Origin: Oscillospiraceae bacterium
Lineage (GTDB): Bacteria; Bacillota; Clostridia; Oscillospirales; Acutalibacteraceae
NCBI GenBank assembly: GCA_029225165.1
Contig: JAQXVY010000014.1
Span: 1-64,000, forward strand
Reading direction: 5' to 3'
Length of the DNA: 64,000 bases
Below, one piece after another: positions 27,284-59,822 of the stretch; position 1 is the stretch's first letter; each line of letters opens with the position of its first letter. The notes below the pieces were generated by a model, which had not been told where the DNA came from, made no database searches, and saw only the letters and a program-made list of their open reading frames with translations. The position numbers were made by a program, and so were the translations under genes.

Positions 27284-28297
27284 ATGAATATTTTACTTAC
27301 AGGCGGAGCCGGTTATATTGGCTCCCACACCTGCATAGAATTAATCAGTGCCGGACATACTGTTGTAATTGCCGACAACCTGTGCAACAGCAGTAAGAAA
27401 GCTGTGAGCAGAGTGGAAGAAATCACAGGTGCAAAAATCCCATTTTACGAGATTGATGTTTGTGACTATGACAAACTCTCAACTGTTTTTGAGGAAAACA
27501 GGATTGAATCTGTAATTCACTTTGCAGGTCTTAAGGCTGTGGGCGAAAGCTGTGAAATACCCCTCAGGTACTATCGCAACAACATTGACAGCACATTAAC
27601 GCTTTTGGAGGTGATGAAAAAGTACGGTTGTCATAACTTTGTTTTTTCTTCATCTGCTACTGTTTACGGAATTCCTAAAACCGTTCCGTTGGTAGAAACT
27701 ATGCCAACCTCCTGCACAAATCCCTACGGTTGGACAAAGCTTATGATTGAACAGATACTTAATGACGCAACAAAGGCAGACCCTGAGCTTTCAGTTGTTC
27801 TGCTCAGATATTTTAATCCTATCGGAGCTCACGAAAGCGGTAGGATTGGAGAAAATCCAAACGGTGTTCCAAACAACCTTATGCCGTATATTACACAGGT
27901 GGCTGTGGGCAAGTTAAAACAGCTTGGTGTCTTTGGTGACGACTATCCAACCCACGACGGAACAGGTGTTCGTGACTACATCCATGTTGTGGATTTGGCA
28001 AAGGGCCATGTAAAGGCAATCGACTATGCCTCCTGTCACAAGGGTACAGAAATTGTAAACCTGGGCACAGGTGTAGGATACTCTGTTTTGGATATAGTTA
28101 AAGCCTTCATTAAGGTTAACGGTGTTGACATTCCTTATGCTATCAAACCAAGGAGAGCCGGGGATATTGCAGAGTGCTATGCAGACCCAACCAAGGCTTT
28201 AAAGGTTTTGGGCTGGAAGGCTGAAAAGAACCTTGAGGATATGTGCCGTGACTCTTGGAACTGGCAAAAGAAAAATCCAAAGGGTTACGAGGAATAA
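27284..28297 (+). CDS. galE: UDP-glucose 4-epimerase
   Basis: [51 protein letters not shown] and [17 protein letters not shown]. Confidence 0.96.
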
Positions 28298-29470: not shown

Positions 29471-30583
29471 ATGAAGAAGTTTTTAAGCTTTTTACTTGTG
29501 ATTGCAGTTGTTATGAGTTTTGCAACTATCGCAATGACAGTATCAGCAGACGAAAATGAATTGGTTGCAGCAGGTGCTACTGAGGAAGTAGCTGAGGTTG
29601 CAGCTGACGATGCTGTTTCAGTTGGTGCAGGTACAGACACAGAGGCATCAGGCGAGGCAGGTAAGATTTATTTTGAAAAGCCAAGCGCATGGGCAGGTAC
29701 AACTTTTAGCACACATATTTGGGTAGTTGAAACTGGTGAATCATTCTTTGGCTTTAGTACTAAGAAAGAAAGACTTAAAGAAGAAGGCGGTAAGCTTTCC
29801 TATGACCTTAGCATTTTGAGTGACCCTTCGGCTCAGATTTCCGGAGGATTTAAGTCAGGCGTTGACTATTCTATTATGTTCTATGATGAACTTGGTAACG
29901 AAACCTGCGGACTTATGTTCAACACAAACTGCGTAGGAGACACAGCTTACCTCACAGCAAACGAAAAGACTTTTGAAAACACAGAGGACTCAAGAAAGCA
30001 CTCTTATCCAATCGCTTGGAAAGACAATGGTAAGAAGTACGGTATTCCACTTCAGATTACATCTGTAGGTACAATTCAGGGTGAATTCGTTTCTCCTGAC
30101 AGAACACCTGACGAGATTATCAAGGCTTGGGACAAGGGCTTCCCATCATACCCAAGTAAGGAATCTTACAGCCCACAGTCTTCTGCAAGAGATCACAAGA
30201 CAAGACTTGCTGAAATCAAGGCAGAATTTGACAAGATGATTGCTGAGGGCAAGGTTCTCTTAATCGGTGGTGGTGTTTACACTAAGAGTGCATCATCAAA
30301 CCCTGGTTCTTCTAACGGTCCTTCCGGCGACTCTTCAGAGGACGATTCAAGTGATTCTTCAAAGGCTCCCTCTTCCTACAAGACACCTGACGGAAAGAAA
30401 GTTGTTAAGAATGATAAAGGTGAGTTCGTTGACGAAGACGGTAATGTAGTTGACGCAAGTGATGTTGTTGAGGTAGAGGGTTCTGTTTCAACAGGTGAGT
30501 CAACAACATATGTATATGTTGGTCTTGGCTTAATGCTTGCAGCAGCCGGTGTATACTTTGTAACACGCAAGAGAAAAGCTTAA
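29471..30583 (+). CDS. Secreted cell-surface protein with unnamed N-terminal domain and TG-type C-terminal sorting-like signal
   Basis: MKKFLSFLLVIAVVMSFATIAMTVSA signal peptide; domain IYFEKPSAWAGTTFSTHIW...; C-terminus VSTGESTTYVYVGLGLMLAAAGVYFVTRKRKA; strong RBS AGGAGGAAATAACA. Confidence 0.75.
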   Translation: MKKFLSFLLVIAVVMSFATIAMTVSADENELVAAGATEEVAEVAADDAVSVGAGTDTEASGEAGKIYFEKPSAWAGTTFSTHIWVVETGESFFGFSTKKERLKEEGGKLSYDLSILSDPSAQISGGFKSGVDYSIMFYDELGNETCGLMFNTNCVGDTAYLTANEKTFENTEDSRKHSYPIAWKDNGKKYGIPLQITSVGTIQGEFVSPDRTPDEIIKAWDKGFPSYPSKESYSPQSSARDHKTRLAEIKAEFDKMIAEGKVLLIGGGVYTKSASSNPGSSNGPSGDSSEDDSSDSSKAPSSYKTPDGKKVVKNDKGEFVDEDGNVVDASDVVEVEGSVSTGESTTYVYVGLGLMLAAAGVYFVTRKRKA

Positions 30584-30604
30584 TTAATTAAAACTCGTAA
30601 TTAT

Positions 30605-30634
30605 GACCCTGTCTTATGACAGGGTCTTTTTATT
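30605..30634 (+). terminator. Intrinsic terminator
   Basis: GACCCTGTCTTATGACAGGGTC-TTTTTATTT. Confidence 0.8.
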
Positions 30635-30657
30635 TACAATTTGTACACATATACATC

Positions 30658-30687
30658 TTGCTAAATGGTAGGTGTGTGTAGTATAAT
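30658..30687 (+). promoter_or_regulatory. Housekeeping sigma promoter candidate
   Basis: TTGCTA - 18 bp - TATAAT upstream of the 30735 gene. Confidence 0.45.
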
Positions 30688-30734
30688 GATAAAAAGAGTC
30701 TTCTATTAGTTTTAAGATTCCGGTTGGTGTTGTA

Positions 30735-31421
30735 ATGAGAATTTGTAAATCAAAAATTTTCCTTGTGTTGGTTACAGTATTTCTATTGTTATTTTCTGTT
30801 CCCACAGCTTATGGAGAAGAAAACAAAAATGAAGAAAATGTAATATACTTTAATGTTCCTGTAACCGGTAATTATGCCTGGGGAAATTACGATGTTGTTT
30901 ACTGCCATATTTGGGAGGACGGCGGAGAAGAATTTTTCTCTTGGCAAACCACCAAGGAAAAATGTACAAGGGTAAAGGGCGATTTGTGGAAGTACGATTT
31001 AGATGTCCTTGATGAGAGCCGTCGCATCAAGGGCGGTATTGAAAGCGGTGTAAAGTACGCTGTTATTTTTAGTGATAACTTAGGGGATCAGACCTACGAC
31101 CTTTACTTTACCTCTGAATGTATAGGTGACACCGTTGAATGTGGTGAAAATACAAGGGATAACCCTATTGACGCCCAAAAGAAGTGTCTTGTGGCAAACT
31201 GGGTGAACAATCACTTTGACCCTGTTGAATATAAGAAAATCCCATCAGAACCACAGGAGGCAACAATATTCACACACACTAATGAAGAAAACAGCGGAGA
31301 TACACTATCTCAGGATATGAGTATTACAATTATTATCATCCTGTCAGCCGTAATTCTCCTTTTGCTTATCCTTCTGATTATTAAGGTACTGAAGGACAAA
31401 AAGGCAAAACTTAAAAAGTAA
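30735..31421 (+). CDS. Secreted, C-terminally membrane-anchored paralog of the 29471 protein
   Basis: Signal peptide; VIYFNVPVTGNYAWGNYDVVYCHIWEDGGEEFFSWQTTKEK...GGIESGVKYAVIFSDNLGDQTYDLYFTSECIGDT aligns with the 29471 protein; TM then KVLKDKKAKLKK. Confidence 0.75.
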   Translation: MRICKSKIFLVLVTVFLLLFSVPTAYGEENKNEENVIYFNVPVTGNYAWGNYDVVYCHIWEDGGEEFFSWQTTKEKCTRVKGDLWKYDLDVLDESRRIKGGIESGVKYAVIFSDNLGDQTYDLYFTSECIGDTVECGENTRDNPIDAQKKCLVANWVNNHFDPVEYKKIPSEPQEATIFTHTNEENSGDTLSQDMSITIIIILSAVILLLLILLIIKVLKDKKAKLKK

Positions 31422-31436
31422 TATTTCATAATAAAA

Positions 31437-31470
31437 AGGACCGGGTCAAACGACTCGGTCCTTGTGTTTT
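31437..31470. terminator. Bidirectional intrinsic terminator between convergent genes
   Basis: AAGGACCGGGTC AAAC GACTCGGTCCTT. Confidence 0.75.
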
Positions 31471-31478
31471 TTACAGTA

Positions 31479-32054
31479 TTATTTGTATGTGTTTACGCAG
31501 ATTTCTTTGATTTTATCCCGCAGGATTTGAAAATCCCTAAATGCCTCCGGCCTTTTTCGTGGGTCACGGAGAATGGCGGCAGGGTGGAGCATTGGCATCA
31601 TAAGAACTCCGCCCTTTTCAAAGAACATTCCGTGTTCCTTGGTGATTTTAATATCCGGCTTGATAATTTTTGCAGATGCAATTCTGCCAAGGCAAACAAT
31701 AATTTTCGGTTTCATCAGCTTGAATTGATTGCGCAGCCATGGTGTACAGGCTGTTTGCTCCTCCGGCTTTGGGTCACGGTTTTTGGGCGGTCGGCATTTT
31801 ACAATGTTTGCTATGTAAATGTTTTCTTCCCTTGATAAATCCACAGAGTAAAGCATTTTGTCCAGCAGTTTTCCGCCTCTGCCCACAAAAGGCTCGCCTT
31901 GAAGGTCCTCGTTTTCTCCCGGACCTTCTCCTATGAACAGCACCTCGGCATTCTTGTTGCCAACACCAAATACAACATTGTTTCTCGTTTGGCAAAGCTC
32001 ACATTTTTTGCAGTTCAGACATTCTCGTTCTAATTCGTTCCAGTTATCAAACAT
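31479..32054 (-). CDS. Family 4-type uracil-DNA glycosylase
   Basis: CKKCELCQTRNNVVFGVGNKNAEVLFIGEGPGENEDLQGEPFVGRGGKLLDKML and LHPAAILRDPRKRP. Confidence 0.92.
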   Translation of the reverse strand: MFDNWNELERECLNCKKCELCQTRNNVVFGVGNKNAEVLFIGEGPGENEDLQGEPFVGRGGKLLDKMLYSVDLSREENIYIANIVKCRPPKNRDPKPEEQTACTPWLRNQFKLMKPKIIVCLGRIASAKIIKPDIKITKEHGMFFEKGGVLMMPMLHPAAILRDPRKRPEAFRDFQILRDKIKEICVNTYK

Positions 32055-32165
32055 TTTTCTCTCCTAAAATTACTCTTTTATATTGAAAAAACCGCTGAAT
32101 GGGTGTAATATGTAATACGGAAATTGATTCCCATATTTTAAATTTTTATGATTGGCGGTATTGAA

Positions 32166-32732
32166 ATGAAAGTATTAGTTGAAACATCAGCCCACCATGT
32201 TCATGTGACTGATGAAACTTTGGAAGCCCTTTTTGGAAAGGGTGCAACCCTGACAAATAAAAAGGATTTGTCACAACCCGGTCAGTTTGCCTGTGTTGAA
32301 AAGGTAACTGTTGTTGGACCTCGTGGAGAAATGAAGATGTCAATCTTGGGACCTACAAGGTCAAAGGATCAGGTTGAAATCTCCCTCACAGACGCCAGAA
32401 AGCTGGGTATCTCTGCCCCTGTAAAGGAATCCGGATGCGTTGAGGGAACACCGGGCTGTAAGCTTGTTGGTCCCTGCGGTGAATGTGAAATTTCACAGGG
32501 CGTAATCGTTGCCAAAAGGCATATCCACTTTACTCCCGAAAACGCAAAGGAATGTGGTGTTGAGGACAAGCAAATCGTTTCTGTTAAGATTGAAAGCGAC
32601 GGTCGTTCCCTTACATTTGATGATGTAGTAGTTCGTGTTTCCGAAAGCTACGCACCTGCAATGCACATTGACACAGACGAAAGCAACGCCGCTATGGCAT
32701 CAGGTGAAATTTACGGAGAAATTATTTTATAA
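32166..32732 (+). CDS. pduL: Phosphate propanoyltransferase (PduL-type phosphotransacylase)
   Basis: VLVETSAHHVHVTDETLEALFGKGATLTNKKDLSQPGQFA and GVIVAKRHIHFTPENAKECGVEDKQIVSV. Confidence 0.93.
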   Translation: MKVLVETSAHHVHVTDETLEALFGKGATLTNKKDLSQPGQFACVEKVTVVGPRGEMKMSILGPTRSKDQVEISLTDARKLGISAPVKESGCVEGTPGCKLVGPCGECEISQGVIVAKRHIHFTPENAKECGVEDKQIVSVKIESDGRSLTFDDVVVRVSESYAPAMHIDTDESNAAMASGEIYGEIIL

Positions 32733-32822: not shown

Positions 32823-34556
32823 CTATATTTGGGCAAGGAATTTTTGAATCGCTGTGCAGTCCTTGATATTCACCTTTCCGTCCTTGTTAAAGTCGGCATT
32901 GATAAGTGCATTTTCTTCTAAATCAAATTCTTTATTGATGAATTTTTGAATGAATGTTACATCAGCAACATTCACTTCCCTGTCAAGATTTGCATCTCCC
33001 ATTAGGTTGCTCTGCTTTGTTGTGATAGCCTTAATTACAAGGTTTCCGCCCTCTGTATCATTTAGCATATCGGAGTAGAAATCCATAACATCATCCATAA
33101 TACCCTTGTAATATATGTAGCTGACGCCTGACTTTGCATCTGTGGTGAAAATTCGTTTATCACCGGCAACATTAAGCCATTCGCTTATTCCTACACCGCT
33201 TAATTCCTCTGTGCCTGTTGCATCTATTCTTACGCCAATACAGGCTTTGCCTTTATTAATGTCAAAGTTCTCAATATCGTCACAGATATAACCACTGTAC
33301 GGTACAGTTCCACTACCGATTTCTGTCCAGAGAGATGTATCCTCAGTAGGGGACTGGGCAGTTTCGTCATATGGTATATAGTAGAGGTCATATTTTGCGC
33401 CAATGCTTGTGGTTTCAAACACAACCTTGTCGATGCACTCCTCATCCCTGCTAAAGTCAAGAACATTTATAAAAACATTGTTCTGTGAGTTAATTTTGAA
33501 TGCAGGGTCACTGAGGTAAGTAAATTCGTATGTTGCACCGAACTTTTCAACCTGATAAATATTGTTATATTCAGCCCTTGATACAAAATCTGTTATGCAG
33601 TAGGACGGACCAAAGGCATCCGAGAATACATAGTAATCTTCGTATGAAATCCAAAAATAACCGCCAAGTGAATTGTTACTTCCCCAACTGTTTTTGCAAA
33701 GCCAAGCGCCGTCATTCTGTGGTGAATATTCCTTGTAATAAGGCTCTGTAATGCCGTTTGCCTTGTCCTCCTCGGTTGGCTGGGTCAACAATGACTGGGT
33801 GAGGAAATTATCCTTGCTGTAACTATCATCCCACCCAACAACGCTTATGCTGTGACCTGAAACAGAGGTTTGCTTTGTTGGACAGTAGTGACTTGTCTGG
33901 TCGTTTGAAAGGAATTTTGAAGTGCTGTTGTAGTTTGCTGAAACAGCGCCGTAGTCCATAATGCACTTCTTAATTGTTTCAGGGTCGTTGCCGTCTATGT
34001 ACATAACTCCCGAAACACCGTATTTTACATTTTCCGGGTCATCAATTTTTACATCTTCAAAAGGTGCGGTAAAGGGATACAAGCTATCCTTAACAGCTCC
34101 TGACCAGCTTGTAAGGTACCCAAGGGCTATGTAGGGGTATCCCGGGCTTACCTTGTATGTCCTCTGCCAGCCTGTTGTGTCACTTCTTGGTGTACCCCAT
34201 GCGTCCATATGGGCAACAGAAAGCCATTGGGATTCCTCGGGGGTGAGTTTTCCGTTTTTAATCAGCAGAGCTTCAAGGGTTGCAAGACCGCCGAAAGCCC
34301 AACAGCTTTCCGTGTTTTGCTGGTTTCTCACAGGGGTGAGGTAGTTTAAATCTCTGGAGCTGTATGACTGTGGCAGTGTGTCTTCGTCAACATCAAGTGT
34401 GGTAACAGGATTTTCAAATGGCAGAGCCGTGCTTGAAAGTCCAACATCAGCACCGGTGTAATGAGGGTGGATATTTGCCGCAGTTGCGGAATATGTGCCA
34501 AAAACTGTTGTAATGATTACAGCCGAAAGTATAACATTCCTAAAAATTCTTTTCAT
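32823..34556 (-). CDS. Secreted papain-family (C1) peptidase with C-terminal dockerin
   Basis: YLTPVRNQQNTESCWAFGGLATLEALL (active-site Cys), SGHSISVVGWDDSY (His), WLCKNSWGSNNSLGGYFWISYED (Asn); C-terminus LMGDANLDREVNVADVTFIQKFINKEFDLEENALINADFNKDGKVNIKDCTAIQKFLAQI is a paired dockerin type I repeat. Confidence 0.9.
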   Translation of the reverse strand: MKRIFRNVILSAVIITTVFGTYSATAANIHPHYTGADVGLSSTALPFENPVTTLDVDEDTLPQSYSSRDLNYLTPVRNQQNTESCWAFGGLATLEALLIKNGKLTPEESQWLSVAHMDAWGTPRSDTTGWQRTYKVSPGYPYIALGYLTSWSGAVKDSLYPFTAPFEDVKIDDPENVKYGVSGVMYIDGNDPETIKKCIMDYGAVSANYNSTSKFLSNDQTSHYCPTKQTSVSGHSISVVGWDDSYSKDNFLTQSLLTQPTEEDKANGITEPYYKEYSPQNDGAWLCKNSWGSNNSLGGYFWISYEDYYVFSDAFGPSYCITDFVSRAEYNNIYQVEKFGATYEFTYLSDPAFKINSQNNVFINVLDFSRDEECIDKVVFETTSIGAKYDLYYIPYDETAQSPTEDTSLWTEIGSGTVPYSGYICDDIENFDINKGKACIGVRIDATGTEELSGVGISEWLNVAGDKRIFTTDAKSGVSYIYYKGIMDDVMDFYSDMLNDTEGGNLVIKAITTKQSNLMGDANLDREVNVADVTFIQKFINKEFDLEENALINADFNKDGKVNIKDCTAIQKFLAQI

Positions 34557-36776: not shown

Positions 36777-37385
36777 ATGAAGTTTTTATCACATTTGGGA
36801 AAAATAATATTAATAACAGCATCTGCTTTGATTTTGACTATGTGTTCACTTTCAACTGCTTTTGCAGAGGATATTCCGGTGACAGACCCTCCCGAAACCT
36901 TTGCCCCTGCAACAGAGGCACCTGTTACGGAGGCGCCTGTTACAGAACCTCCGGTAACTGAACCACCTGTTACCGAGCCACCGGAAACTTTGCCTTCCGA
37001 AACTGCTCCGCCTGAAACTGAACCACCCGTTACCGAGGCGCCTGAAACAGAGCCTGTTTATACAGAACCCGCTCCGCAAGAAACACAGGAGGCAACACAG
37101 GAGTGGACACAGCCACAGACATATGATGTAAATAAATTGCCCACATTGCCCGACAGCACAGAGGTTGCCGAGGACTTGCCCACAGCTATCGGTGCCGACA
37201 GCGAAAGTGGCGGGGTAAGCCTTGTAGGCGGTATTGTGTGCTGGATTGGCGTTGGTGTTTCACTTGCAGTTATCGTTGCTTTTCTCCTTTCCACCACAGG
37301 AAAGAATAAAGCGGGAATCGGCAGATACGAAAGCGGAAACAAAATCGGCGGTCACCACTACCAAAATAATACGAGATACAGGTAA
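36777..37385 (+). CDS. Secreted Thr/Pro/Glu-rich repeat protein with C-terminal TM
   Basis: Signal peptide; (A/P)PVTE(A/P)P repeats; TM VCWIGVGVSLAVIVAFLLS. Confidence 0.6.
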   Translation: MKFLSHLGKIILITASALILTMCSLSTAFAEDIPVTDPPETFAPATEAPVTEAPVTEPPVTEPPVTEPPETLPSETAPPETEPPVTEAPETEPVYTEPAPQETQEATQEWTQPQTYDVNKLPTLPDSTEVAEDLPTAIGADSESGGVSLVGGIVCWIGVGVSLAVIVAFLLSTTGKNKAGIGRYESGNKIGGHHYQNNTRYR

Positions 37386-41252: not shown

Positions 41253-42452
41253 ATGAAAACATTATGTAAGAGATCATTAGGAGTTATCCTAACACTATTA
41301 CTAATGGTGGGAATGGTTTGTGCCGGCGGTTATTCTGTAATTGCTGCCGATACAGACAAGGAGAGCTCCGGCGGTTCGGTTCATTCCGCAGCGGGACACA
41401 CAATTTACTTTATGAACAACAATAATTGGTCAAGAGTAAACTGTTATATGTGGAATGAAGATCAAGGCAATGCAAACAATGCTTCATGGCCCGGTGAGGC
41501 TATGACAGACGAGGGTGACGGTGTGTGGTCATACGACATCAAGGGTGACTACAATATGGTTATCTTTAACGATGGTTCTAGTCAGACAGGTAATCTTGAT
41601 TACCCGGGCGACAGTATGATTTATGACAACGGATTTAAGGAATACGACACTAATCCACTGAAAGTAAAAGCATTTGAATCAAGTGTTGCTTCACCTCAGT
41701 ATATTGGTTCTTCAATCGTATTTACAGCCGCTGCAAAATCAGATGGTTCTGTAATTGAGTATCAGTACTCAGTTAACGGTACAGTTACACAGAACTACTC
41801 AACAAACAGCACATTCACTTGGAATCCTGTTTCAACAGGTGAGTACACAATCAAGCTTGATGTTAAGGACGACATCGGCAACGCAAACACAAAAGAGCTC
41901 ACATATGAAATCAAGGATCCAAGCAACGAGGTAAAGCCAATATTCCTTTCTTCTTCACCTGCTACAAAAACACAGATTAAGACCGGCGCAATGGCAAACA
42001 TCAGCGTTAACGCAGCAGGCGGTAACACAGGAACAAAGCTTTTGTTCTACAAGTTTGTAGTTAAAGATCCAAGCAACACACAGATTAACACAGCTTATTA
42101 CACACTTAACAAGAATTACAGCTTTACTCCCACAGTTGCAGGTAACTACACAGTTGAAGTTTCTGTACAGAGCAGTGATAATACAACAATCACACAAAAA
42201 TTAACATATGAATCAACAGGCACAGTTACAACAACATCAACCACAACATCTACAACATCTACTGTACCTACAGGTTTATTAGGTGATGTTGATAACAGCG
42301 GAGTAGTTGATGTTGCCGACGCTACACTTATTCAGAAGTATGTAAACCATAAACCTGTTAACAATTTCTTAGTTGAAAGGGCAGATTACAATAAGAATGG
42401 CAAAATTGATATCAGAGATGTAACAGCTATTCAAAAATCTTTGCTTGGCTAA
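41253..42452 (+). CDS. Secreted non-catalytic CBM26-like + Ig/Y-Y-Y-like + dockerin protein
   Basis: Signal peptide; TIYFMNNNNWSRVNCYMWNEDQGNANNASWPGEAMTDEGDGVWSYDI (starch-binding-like); two beta repeats; Thr linker; LLGDVDNSGVVDVADATLIQKYVNHK...ADYNKNGKIDIRDVTAIQKSLLG dockerin. Confidence 0.85.
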   Translation: MKTLCKRSLGVILTLLLMVGMVCAGGYSVIAADTDKESSGGSVHSAAGHTIYFMNNNNWSRVNCYMWNEDQGNANNASWPGEAMTDEGDGVWSYDIKGDYNMVIFNDGSSQTGNLDYPGDSMIYDNGFKEYDTNPLKVKAFESSVASPQYIGSSIVFTAAAKSDGSVIEYQYSVNGTVTQNYSTNSTFTWNPVSTGEYTIKLDVKDDIGNANTKELTYEIKDPSNEVKPIFLSSSPATKTQIKTGAMANISVNAAGGNTGTKLLFYKFVVKDPSNTQINTAYYTLNKNYSFTPTVAGNYTVEVSVQSSDNTTITQKLTYESTGTVTTTSTTTSTTSTVPTGLLGDVDNSGVVDVADATLIQKYVNHKPVNNFLVERADYNKNGKIDIRDVTAIQKSLLG

Positions 42453-57392: not shown

Positions 57393-59822
57393 ATGAAAAG
57401 ATTATTATCCTTGGCAATTGCGGTGTGTATGATCATCGGCATAACCACAGTTGCACAGATTTCTGTAGGTGCGGCGGAAACCCCAAAAATAACAACAGGT
57501 GCTACAAGCGGTGAATATTATATAAGCGGTGATTATGAATATGAACTGCTTGATGACGGCACAGCTGAAATTACAGAATACACCGGCAGTGGCACAAGTA
57601 TTACAATCCCATCACAGATAGATGGATATACCGTAACAACCATTGGCTATGAGGCATTTGAGGATTGCACAAGCCTTACAAGCATAACAATCCCGGACAG
57701 TGTAACAAGCATTGGTGGTTTGGCGTTTTATAATTGCGAAAGCCTTACAAACATAACAATCCCTGACAGTGTAACAGCCATTGGCTATCATGCATTTGAG
57801 AATTGCACAAGCCTTACAAGCATAACAATCCCAGACTGTGTAACAACCATTGATTTTGGTTCATTTGTGCATTGCACAAGCCTTAAAAGTATAACAATCC
57901 CGGACAGTGTAACAACCATTGGCGGTAGGGCATTTGAGGGTTGCACAAGCCTTACAAACATAACAATCCCGGACAGTGTAACCACTATTGGCGATGATGC
58001 ATTCATGGATTGCACAAGCCTTACAAACATAACAATCCCGGACAGTGTAACCACCATTGGCAGTGATGTATTTTGGGAATGCAGAAGTCTTAAAAGCGTA
58101 ACTATTTCAGACAGCGTAACAACCATTGGTGATTGGGCATTTTATAGTTGCACAGGCATTACAAACATAACAATCCCGGACAGCGTAACAACCATTGGCG
58201 AATATGCATTTTCTGGTTGCACAAGCCTTACAAACATAACAATCCCGGACAGTATAACAACCATTGGTAAGAGTGCATTTAATGATACAGCATGGTACAA
58301 CAATCAGTCTGACGGTTTAGTTTATGCAGGTAAGGTAGCATATAAGTACAAAGGTGATTGTCCTTCTGAAGTAATCATTATGGATGGTACAAAAGGTATT
58401 GCCGAAGAGGCATTTGAGTATTGCGAAAGCCTTACAAGCATAACCATCCCGGATAGTGTAGCAACCATTGGCGGTGGGGCATTTTCCGGTTGCAAAAGCC
58501 TTATAAACATAACAATCCCGGACAGTGTAACAACCATTGGCGATTATGCATTTTTCGGTTGCATAAGTCTTACAAGCATAACAATCCCGGACAGTGTAAC
58601 AACCATTGGCGAGAGTACATTTGATTATTGCACAAGCCTTACAAGCATAACAATCCCAGACAGTGTTACAAACATTGGTAGATGTGCATTTGAGAATTGC
58701 GAAAGCCTTACAAGCATAACAATCCCAGACAGTGTAACAACCATTGGCGATTATGCATTTTCTGGTACATCATGGTACAACAATCAGCCTGACGGTTTGG
58801 TTTATGCAGGTAAGGTAGCATATAAGTACAAAGGGGAGTGTCCTTCTGAAGTAATCATTAAGGATGGTACAAAAGGTATTGGCGTAAATGCATTTTCCTA
58901 TTGCACAAACCTTACAAGCATAACAATCCCTGACAGCGTAACAACCATTGGCGCTTTTGCAATTTATAGTTGCACAAGCCTTACAAGCATAACAATCCCT
59001 GATAGTGTAACAACCATTGGAGGTTATGCATTCGGATATTATTCTGCTTATCGTGGAGTTTATAAATTAGAAAATTTCGTAATATACGGCTACACAAATT
59101 CAACTGCTGAAGAATATGCAATCAATAATGGTTTTGCTTTTGTAAGTGTTGGCGAAATGCCAACAACTTCCACAACACAGCCAACTACAACAGAGCCAAC
59201 TACAGCAGAGCCAACTACAACAGAGCCGACTACAACAGTACCAAGTACTACAGTACCAACCACAACAGAGCCAAGTACAACAGTACCAAGTACTACACAG
59301 CCAAGCTCAACAGTACCAACTATAACAGTACCAAGTACAACAAAGCCTGTTCCTACTCAGCCAACAACTGTTAAGAAAACAACAGTAACTCTTGCAAAAT
59401 CATCTGCTACTGTTTACAGAACAGGGAAGACTGCAATCAAGGCAACTGTAAAGAACGGCAAGGGTAAAACAACCTACAAATCAAGTAACACAAAGATTGC
59501 AAAGGTAACATCAAAGGGTGTTGTAACCGGTGTAAGCAAGGGCACAGCCAGGATTACTGTTACCAATAACGGTGTTAAGAAAGTGTTTACCGTTAAGGTT
59601 AAGAACCCAACTCTTAACAAAAATTCTTTATCTATTAAAAAGGGTAAGACTTTTACTCTTAAGATTGCAGGAAAGATTGGCACAGCCAAGTTTACTTCCT
59701 CAAACAAGAAAATTGCCACAGTAAACGCAAAGGGCAAAATCACAGCCAAGAAGAAAGGTACAGTCACAATAAAAGTAAAAACCAACGGCATTACAATGGT
59801 ATGTAAGGTTAAGGTAAAGTAA
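57393..59822 (+). CDS. Secreted BspA-like leucine-rich-repeat protein with Thr/Pro linker and Ig-like (Big_2) domains
   Basis: Signal peptide; many SLTSITIPDSVTTIGDYAFSGC repeats; TTTEPTTAEPTTTEPTTTVPST linker; KSSNTKIAKVTSKGVVTGVSKGTARITV and FTSSNKKIATVNAKGKITAKKKGTVTIKV. Confidence 0.92.
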   Translation: MKRLLSLAIAVCMIIGITTVAQISVGAAETPKITTGATSGEYYISGDYEYELLDDGTAEITEYTGSGTSITIPSQIDGYTVTTIGYEAFEDCTSLTSITIPDSVTSIGGLAFYNCESLTNITIPDSVTAIGYHAFENCTSLTSITIPDCVTTIDFGSFVHCTSLKSITIPDSVTTIGGRAFEGCTSLTNITIPDSVTTIGDDAFMDCTSLTNITIPDSVTTIGSDVFWECRSLKSVTISDSVTTIGDWAFYSCTGITNITIPDSVTTIGEYAFSGCTSLTNITIPDSITTIGKSAFNDTAWYNNQSDGLVYAGKVAYKYKGDCPSEVIIMDGTKGIAEEAFEYCESLTSITIPDSVATIGGGAFSGCKSLINITIPDSVTTIGDYAFFGCISLTSITIPDSVTTIGESTFDYCTSLTSITIPDSVTNIGRCAFENCESLTSITIPDSVTTIGDYAFSGTSWYNNQPDGLVYAGKVAYKYKGECPSEVIIKDGTKGIGVNAFSYCTNLTSITIPDSVTTIGAFAIYSCTSLTSITIPDSVTTIGGYAFGYYSAYRGVYKLENFVIYGYTNSTAEEYAINNGFAFVSVGEMPTTSTTQPTTTEPTTAEPTTTEPTTTVPSTTVPTTTEPSTTVPSTTQPSSTVPTITVPSTTKPVPTQPTTVKKTTVTLAKSSATVYRTGKTAIKATVKNGKGKTTYKSSNTKIAKVTSKGVVTGVSKGTARITVTNNGVKKVFTVKVKNPTLNKNSLSIKKGKTFTLKIAGKIGTAKFTSSNKKIATVNAKGKITAKKKGTVTIKVKTNGITMVCKVKVK
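57640..59035 (+). repeat. Tandem 69-bp LRR-coding repeat array with an embedded larger duplication
   Basis: Near-identical AGCCTTACAAGCATAACAATCCCGGACAGTGTAACAACCATTGGC units; the YNNQ(S/P)DGLVYAGKVAYKYKG(D/E)CPSEVII segment appears twice. Confidence 0.9.

Follow-up and report, generated by a model that had tools for sequence, protein, structure and literature searches.

The locus lies in a 64,000-nucleotide stretch of genomic DNA of a gut Ruminococcus, the whole of which is referred to here as the window, and encodes a single-cohesin protein followed on the same strand by two surface proteins, A and B (Table 1). The reading frames of A (370 residues) and B (228 residues) are intact over the coordinates listed, and both proteins are predicted to be exported by virtue of an N-terminal signal peptide. 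The cohesin protein is composed of a signal peptide, the cohesin, an N/G-rich linker, and a C-terminal transmembrane anchor. The cohesin was missed in a Pfam scan of the whole protein; the isolated domain exceeded the cut-off of 24.1 bits with a score of 32.7, and the genome search gave 33.5 bits, so that the position of A and B behind a cohesin gene, as described in the initial annotation, is upheld. The C-termini are likewise as first described. The tail of A is of the sortase type, exceeding the cut-off of NCBIfam LPXTG_anchor (23.7 bits, cut-off 15.9) and falling slightly below that of Pfam Gram_pos_anchor (19 bits, cut-off 20), and five sortases are encoded in the genome; B ends in a hydrophobic anchor and a basic tail. 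Since a separate terminator-like hairpin follows each gene, the sequence suggests that A and B are transcribed apart.

Table 1. Features of the locus in window coordinates
Feature	Coordinates	Strand	Description and basis
galE-like epimerase gene	27284..28297	+	Conserved upstream flank; same spot in many loci of the genus
Single-cohesin protein, membrane-anchored, 320 aa	28325..29287	+	Opens the conserved surface locus
Protein A	29471..30583	+	Signal peptide, Sas20d1-like sandwich, helical region, G/S-rich linker, sortase-type tail
Sas20d1-like β-sandwich of A, residues 63-207	29657..30091	+	phmmer, Foldseek
Phe95 of A (codon TTT), at the Trp72 position of Sas20	29753..29755	+	Residue mapping
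Helical region C-terminal to the sandwich of A, corresponding to the helical bundle of Sas20d1	30107..30244	+	AlphaFold model
Sortase-type tail of A	30488..30577	+	STGESTT, hydrophobic stretch, RKRKA; NCBIfam LPXTG_anchor
Terminator-like hairpin 3' of A	30605..30626	+	9-pair stem and T run; consensus scan only
Protein B	30735..31421	+	Signal peptide, Sas20d1-like sandwich without helical bundle, short linker, transmembrane anchor
Sas20d1-like β-sandwich of B, residues 34-162	30834..31220	+	phmmer, Foldseek, residue table
Transmembrane anchor of B (approximate)	31317..31391	+	Hydrophobic stretch SITIIIILSAVILLLLILLIIKV, then lysine-rich basic tail
Terminator-like hairpin 3' of B	31436..31463	+	12-pair stem and T run; consensus scan only
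Uracil-DNA glycosylase-like gene	31479..32054	-	Conserved downstream flank
PduL-like gene	32148-32732		After the uracil-DNA glycosylase-like gene

The genome is of the amylosome type, with 19 dockerins and 13 CBM26 modules above cut-off, and the same window encodes a CBM26-dockerin protein (at 41253) and a CBM26-amylase. A Pfam scan detected neither a dockerin nor a cohesin within A or B themselves; the cohesin is encoded by the adjacent gene only, so that a link of the two proteins to the amylosome is suggested by gene order only.

Three further genes of the window were recorded. A papain-family protease carrying a dockerin (32823-34556, minus strand; Pfam Peptidase_C1 and Dockerin_1) is encoded near the locus, stands beside it in some relatives, and may join the amylosome. 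A small protein rich in T-E-P-P-V repeats and containing a transmembrane stretch (36780-37385) lies between SpoIIP-like and Dus-like genes and is 97% conserved in SUG987, the nearest genome compared. A BspA-type leucine-rich-repeat protein with Big_2 domains (57393-59822) is likely to be a further surface protein.

Domain identity and predicted fold

Searches of A and B against all PDB chains with phmmer returned Sas20d1 of Ruminococcus bromii as the sole significant match (A: PDB entry 7RAW, E 3.5e-15, and 7RFT, 3.8e-15; B: 7RAW, E 3.8e-12). The AlphaFold model of A has a mean pLDDT of 87.8, and that of B is of moderate confidence (pLDDT 73). Modeling and structural searching, the checks proposed with the initial annotation, led to the same domain: Foldseek placed the same two Sas20d1 structures first for both proteins, with 7RFT the best match to A (E 4.0e-15) and to the moderately confident model of B (E 2.1e-9). 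After Sas20d1, the only significant fold match, CBM26 or CBM20 starch modules come next for A and B alike. Sequence and modeled fold together identify the shared region of A and B as a Sas20d1-like domain with a predicted CBM26-like β-sandwich.

The structure of Sas20d1, solved in 2022, comprises a CBM26-like sandwich and a helical bundle with maltotriose bound between them (PMC9112005). The domain binds maltoheptaose with a Kd of 1.5 µM and amylopectin with a Kd of 10-18 µM, and leaves cyclodextrins unbound (PMC9112005). Substitution W72A abolishes binding, and a construct without the helices binds maltoheptaose approximately 100-fold more weakly (PMC9112005). The same paper describes a cell-wall-anchored homolog, RBR_02940, for which starch binding was predicted (PMC9112005). 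As both the domain and an anchored homolog are covered there, the module is already described, and the suggestion that it might be new does not hold. It had also been called unnamed, which is correct insofar as Sas20d1-like domains are not represented by any model in Pfam or NCBIfam and incorrect insofar as it is known as Sas20d1, a name that was found in PMC9112005 alone within the literature searched.

The CBM26 family proper (PF16738; Bacillus halodurans amylase, PDB entry 2C3H) shares the general sandwich fold, and was rejected as the family of A and B on Pfam cut-offs: A has no match to the CBM26 model, and B scores 22.1 and 23.5 bits, below the cut-off of 28.1. The resemblance to the CBM26 module of the protein at 41253, pointed out in the initial annotation, holds at the level of fold and is weak in sequence (BLASTP E of approximately 0.02-0.04, with 9 and 5 of 1000 shuffles scoring as high).

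Relative to Sas20d1, A and B have the same sandwich by sequence and predicted fold, with the contact positions largely kept. As in Sas20d1, helices stand behind the sandwich in the model of A (residues 213-223 and 242-258, with low confidence between them), whereas in B, which has no helical bundle, the sandwich is followed by a short linker and the membrane anchor. Sas20 has in addition a second starch domain (an X25 pair) and a dockerin, through which it enters the R. bromii amylosome; A and B have anchors instead. The closest counterpart of A in architecture is RBR_02940 (L2-63_00923) of R. bromii, which combines a signal peptide, sandwich, helices, G/S-rich linker, and sortase-type tail and likewise lacks a dockerin. 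B, having neither helices nor a sorting-type tail, does not fit this architecture. The gene for RBR_02940, which keeps Trp72, sits between those for alanyl-tRNA ligase and an endonuclease and not behind a cohesin; in a compared genome containing Sas20 at 100% identity, taken as R. bromii, the anchored homolog was found between alanyl-tRNA ligase and endonuclease IV, in agreement with PMC9112005.

Conservation of the contact residues

Eight positions contacting maltotriose in Sas20 (60, 72, 127, 130, 151, 152, 154, and 157) were mapped on the relatives. Trp72 is present in 115 of 121 domains, Asn151 in 116, and Asp154 in 117. Across 77 non-redundant sequences the mean entropy is 0.82 bits in the contact columns, compared with 2.06 bits for all columns, a difference in which conservation for binding and conservation of the buried core are not separable; entropy as low was reached by 4 of 100,000 random column sets. 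B agrees with the family consensus at all eight positions. The platform residues, Tyr60 and Trp72 in Sas20, are both Trp in B, and Trp and Phe in A, which is thus aromatic at both positions but without the essential Trp. At the six polar positions (Q, N, N, T, D, K in Sas20), the residues are Q, D, N, P, D, K in B and E, G, N, T, D, K in A. Glu127 is common to the whole subfamily of A and Gly130 to nearly all of it, where most relatives have Gln and Asp or Asn. Phe72, by contrast, is peculiar to A within this subfamily, and the closest ortholog (87% identical) has Trp.

Two subfamilies of paralogs

The proposal that A and B are paralogous after the signal peptide was borne out. They share 37% identity across 143 residues (BLASTP E 3e-21), and their local alignment score of 197 is far above those of 1000 shuffles (mean 29.5, standard deviation 5.3, maximum 56). 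In a tree of 121 domains, built on few columns and with bootstrap values that are not fully settled, B groups with other short anchored forms in a clade of 13 (support 98/88), and A falls in a clade of 10 (support 100/100) nested among long forms. Because these supported clades are separate, A and B are, on the sequence tree, old paralogs of two subfamilies that now stand side by side, and a recent local duplication giving rise to both was rejected. The short forms run from the sandwich through a linker to a C-terminal anchor, with no recognizable helical bundle, as judged from sequence and, for B alone, from a model.

Two further A-like copies are present elsewhere in the genome (440 residues, G000:C21:21182-22501; 438 residues, G000:C59:27339-28652). 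Their C-terminal halves are near-identical, and end, in place of an anchor, in a lysine-rich, Ig-like repeat domain. A dockerin-bearing ortholog of Sas20 was sought in this assembly, which is 88% complete, and was not seen; none of the four Sas20d1-like matches has a dockerin. Among the relatives, one protein of 770 residues (G120:C192, 6251-8563) contains three tandem Sas20d1-like domains and a dockerin, and one Sas20d1-like match (G369:C1:20439-21581) is interrupted by three in-frame stops (one TGA, two TAA), possibly representing a decayed copy.

Distribution and conservation of the locus

Of 161 genomes sampled from the genus, 157 contain Sas20d1-like domains, including all 81 with a completeness of 90% or more and a contamination of 5% or less. 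In the sampled family they occur in 31 of 398 genomes and 11 of 135 genera. Relatives of the cohesin protein are present in 133 of the 161 genus genomes. SUG987 retains the whole block in order (galE, cohesin, A, B, uracil-DNA glycosylase, PduL), and in many other species the same slot between galE and uracil-DNA glycosylase/PduL holds a cohesin gene and, behind it, one to three Sas20d1-like genes for anchored proteins. A Sas20d1-like gene of the same orientation lies no more than 1.5 kb downstream in 35 of 79 cohesin loci, part of which were chosen because the pair is present, and a Sas20d1-like neighbor was found at 19 of the 60 picked by cohesin score alone. Both counts are lower bounds because the contig breaks off close to the gene in several cases, and occurrences in related species do not count as independent.

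Proposed function

Homology, fold, residue conservation, anchors, and conserved gene order are what was observed or computed for A and B. The most probable interpretation (roughly 0.8), drawn from sequence and models, is that A and B bind starch at the cell surface by means of a domain of the Sas20d1 type, beside an anchored cohesin. The surface α-glucan capture role put forward in the initial annotation is, as a prediction, strongly supported, since the domain matched in both sequence and fold has measured starch binding. Most likely, the genes form a locus for capturing starch at the cell surface, in operation alongside the amylosome. Both proteins would be exported, a sortase attaching A to the wall and B being retained in the membrane. 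In each, the aromatic platform and loop residues of the CBM26-like sandwich would grip short stretches of α-1,4-glucan, while the anchored cohesin encoded by the adjacent gene would dock dockerin-bearing amylases, the A and B binders keeping starch near both the enzymes and the cell. With a canonical site and no helical lid, B probably binds more weakly or in a more open manner; A, with a lid, Phe for the key Trp, and a contact pattern of its own, probably has a reduced or altered preference. We infer on these grounds that A and B bind starch, differ in affinity, and cooperate with the cohesin.

It is conceivable, although rather unlikely, that B alone is a working starch binder, A having lost or changed its ligand (to another α-glucan geometry or another glycan) and serving as a wall-anchored spacer or adhesin. 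The replacement of Trp72, unique to A in its subfamily, and the subfamily-wide changes at positions 127 and 130 would be expected of such a protein. However, Phe can still stack on a sugar, A retains Asn151, Thr152, Asp154, and Lys157 as in Sas20 together with the helices, and the Trp persists in its nearest ortholog. A broader doubt concerns the family as a whole, which reaches beyond the amylosome Ruminococcus into 11 of the sampled genera with varied architectures, such that the starch activity of Sas20d1 could be one specialization and the domain of A and B could bind a different polymer, a host or cell-wall glycan. This appears improbable, given that the maltotriose-contact residues are kept across the 121 domains and that the genome is rich in starch modules.

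The neighborhood of the cohesin may be questioned separately. Housekeeping neighbors (galE, uracil-DNA glycosylase, and PduL) are conserved along with it, many cohesin loci have no Sas20d1-like neighbor, and the anchored R. bromii gene lies away from a cohesin (PMC9112005), all of which would be consistent with shared ancestry of a stable chromosome region in which binder and scaffoldin are functionally unlinked. That possibility deserves some weight, though it is not the interpretation favored here: the pair of cohesin and binder persists in species whose cohesins are just 28-38% identical (approximately), and both the number (one to three) and the class of the Sas20d1-like genes in the slot vary.

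Taking A and B as surface starch binders, three aspects extend the published account. B has the consensus contact residues and, by prediction, no helical bundle, and groups with short membrane-anchored forms in a supported clade. A has Phe for the essential Trp72 and, by prediction, the bundle, in a subfamily that differs at two more contact positions. Finally, an anchored cohesin gene with one to three anchored Sas20d1-like genes behind it is a repeated arrangement in the genus. Neither the short helix-less class nor the recurring scaffoldin-binder locus is mentioned in the literature searched, the coverage of which did not extend to PMC12663171, published in 2025 on the amylosome of R. bromii. 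It is tempting to speculate, as an unlikely and strictly tentative generalization, that most of the genus possesses a locus dedicated to starch capture at the cell surface, where an anchored scaffoldin works as a single device together with one to three anchored binders of the Sas20d1 type that carry no dockerins, and that the helix-less, membrane-held class of B represents a separate mode, its open site seizing inner chain segments where the lidded forms would take chain ends.

How degraders of resistant starch grip granules at their surface is so far partly known. A Sas20d1-like domain is nearly universal in this genus, and relatives of R. bromii also appear to fix it straight to the wall and the membrane, next to a scaffoldin. 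A and B are natural variants lacking, respectively, the two features that were decisive in the work on Sas20, Trp72 and the helical bundle.
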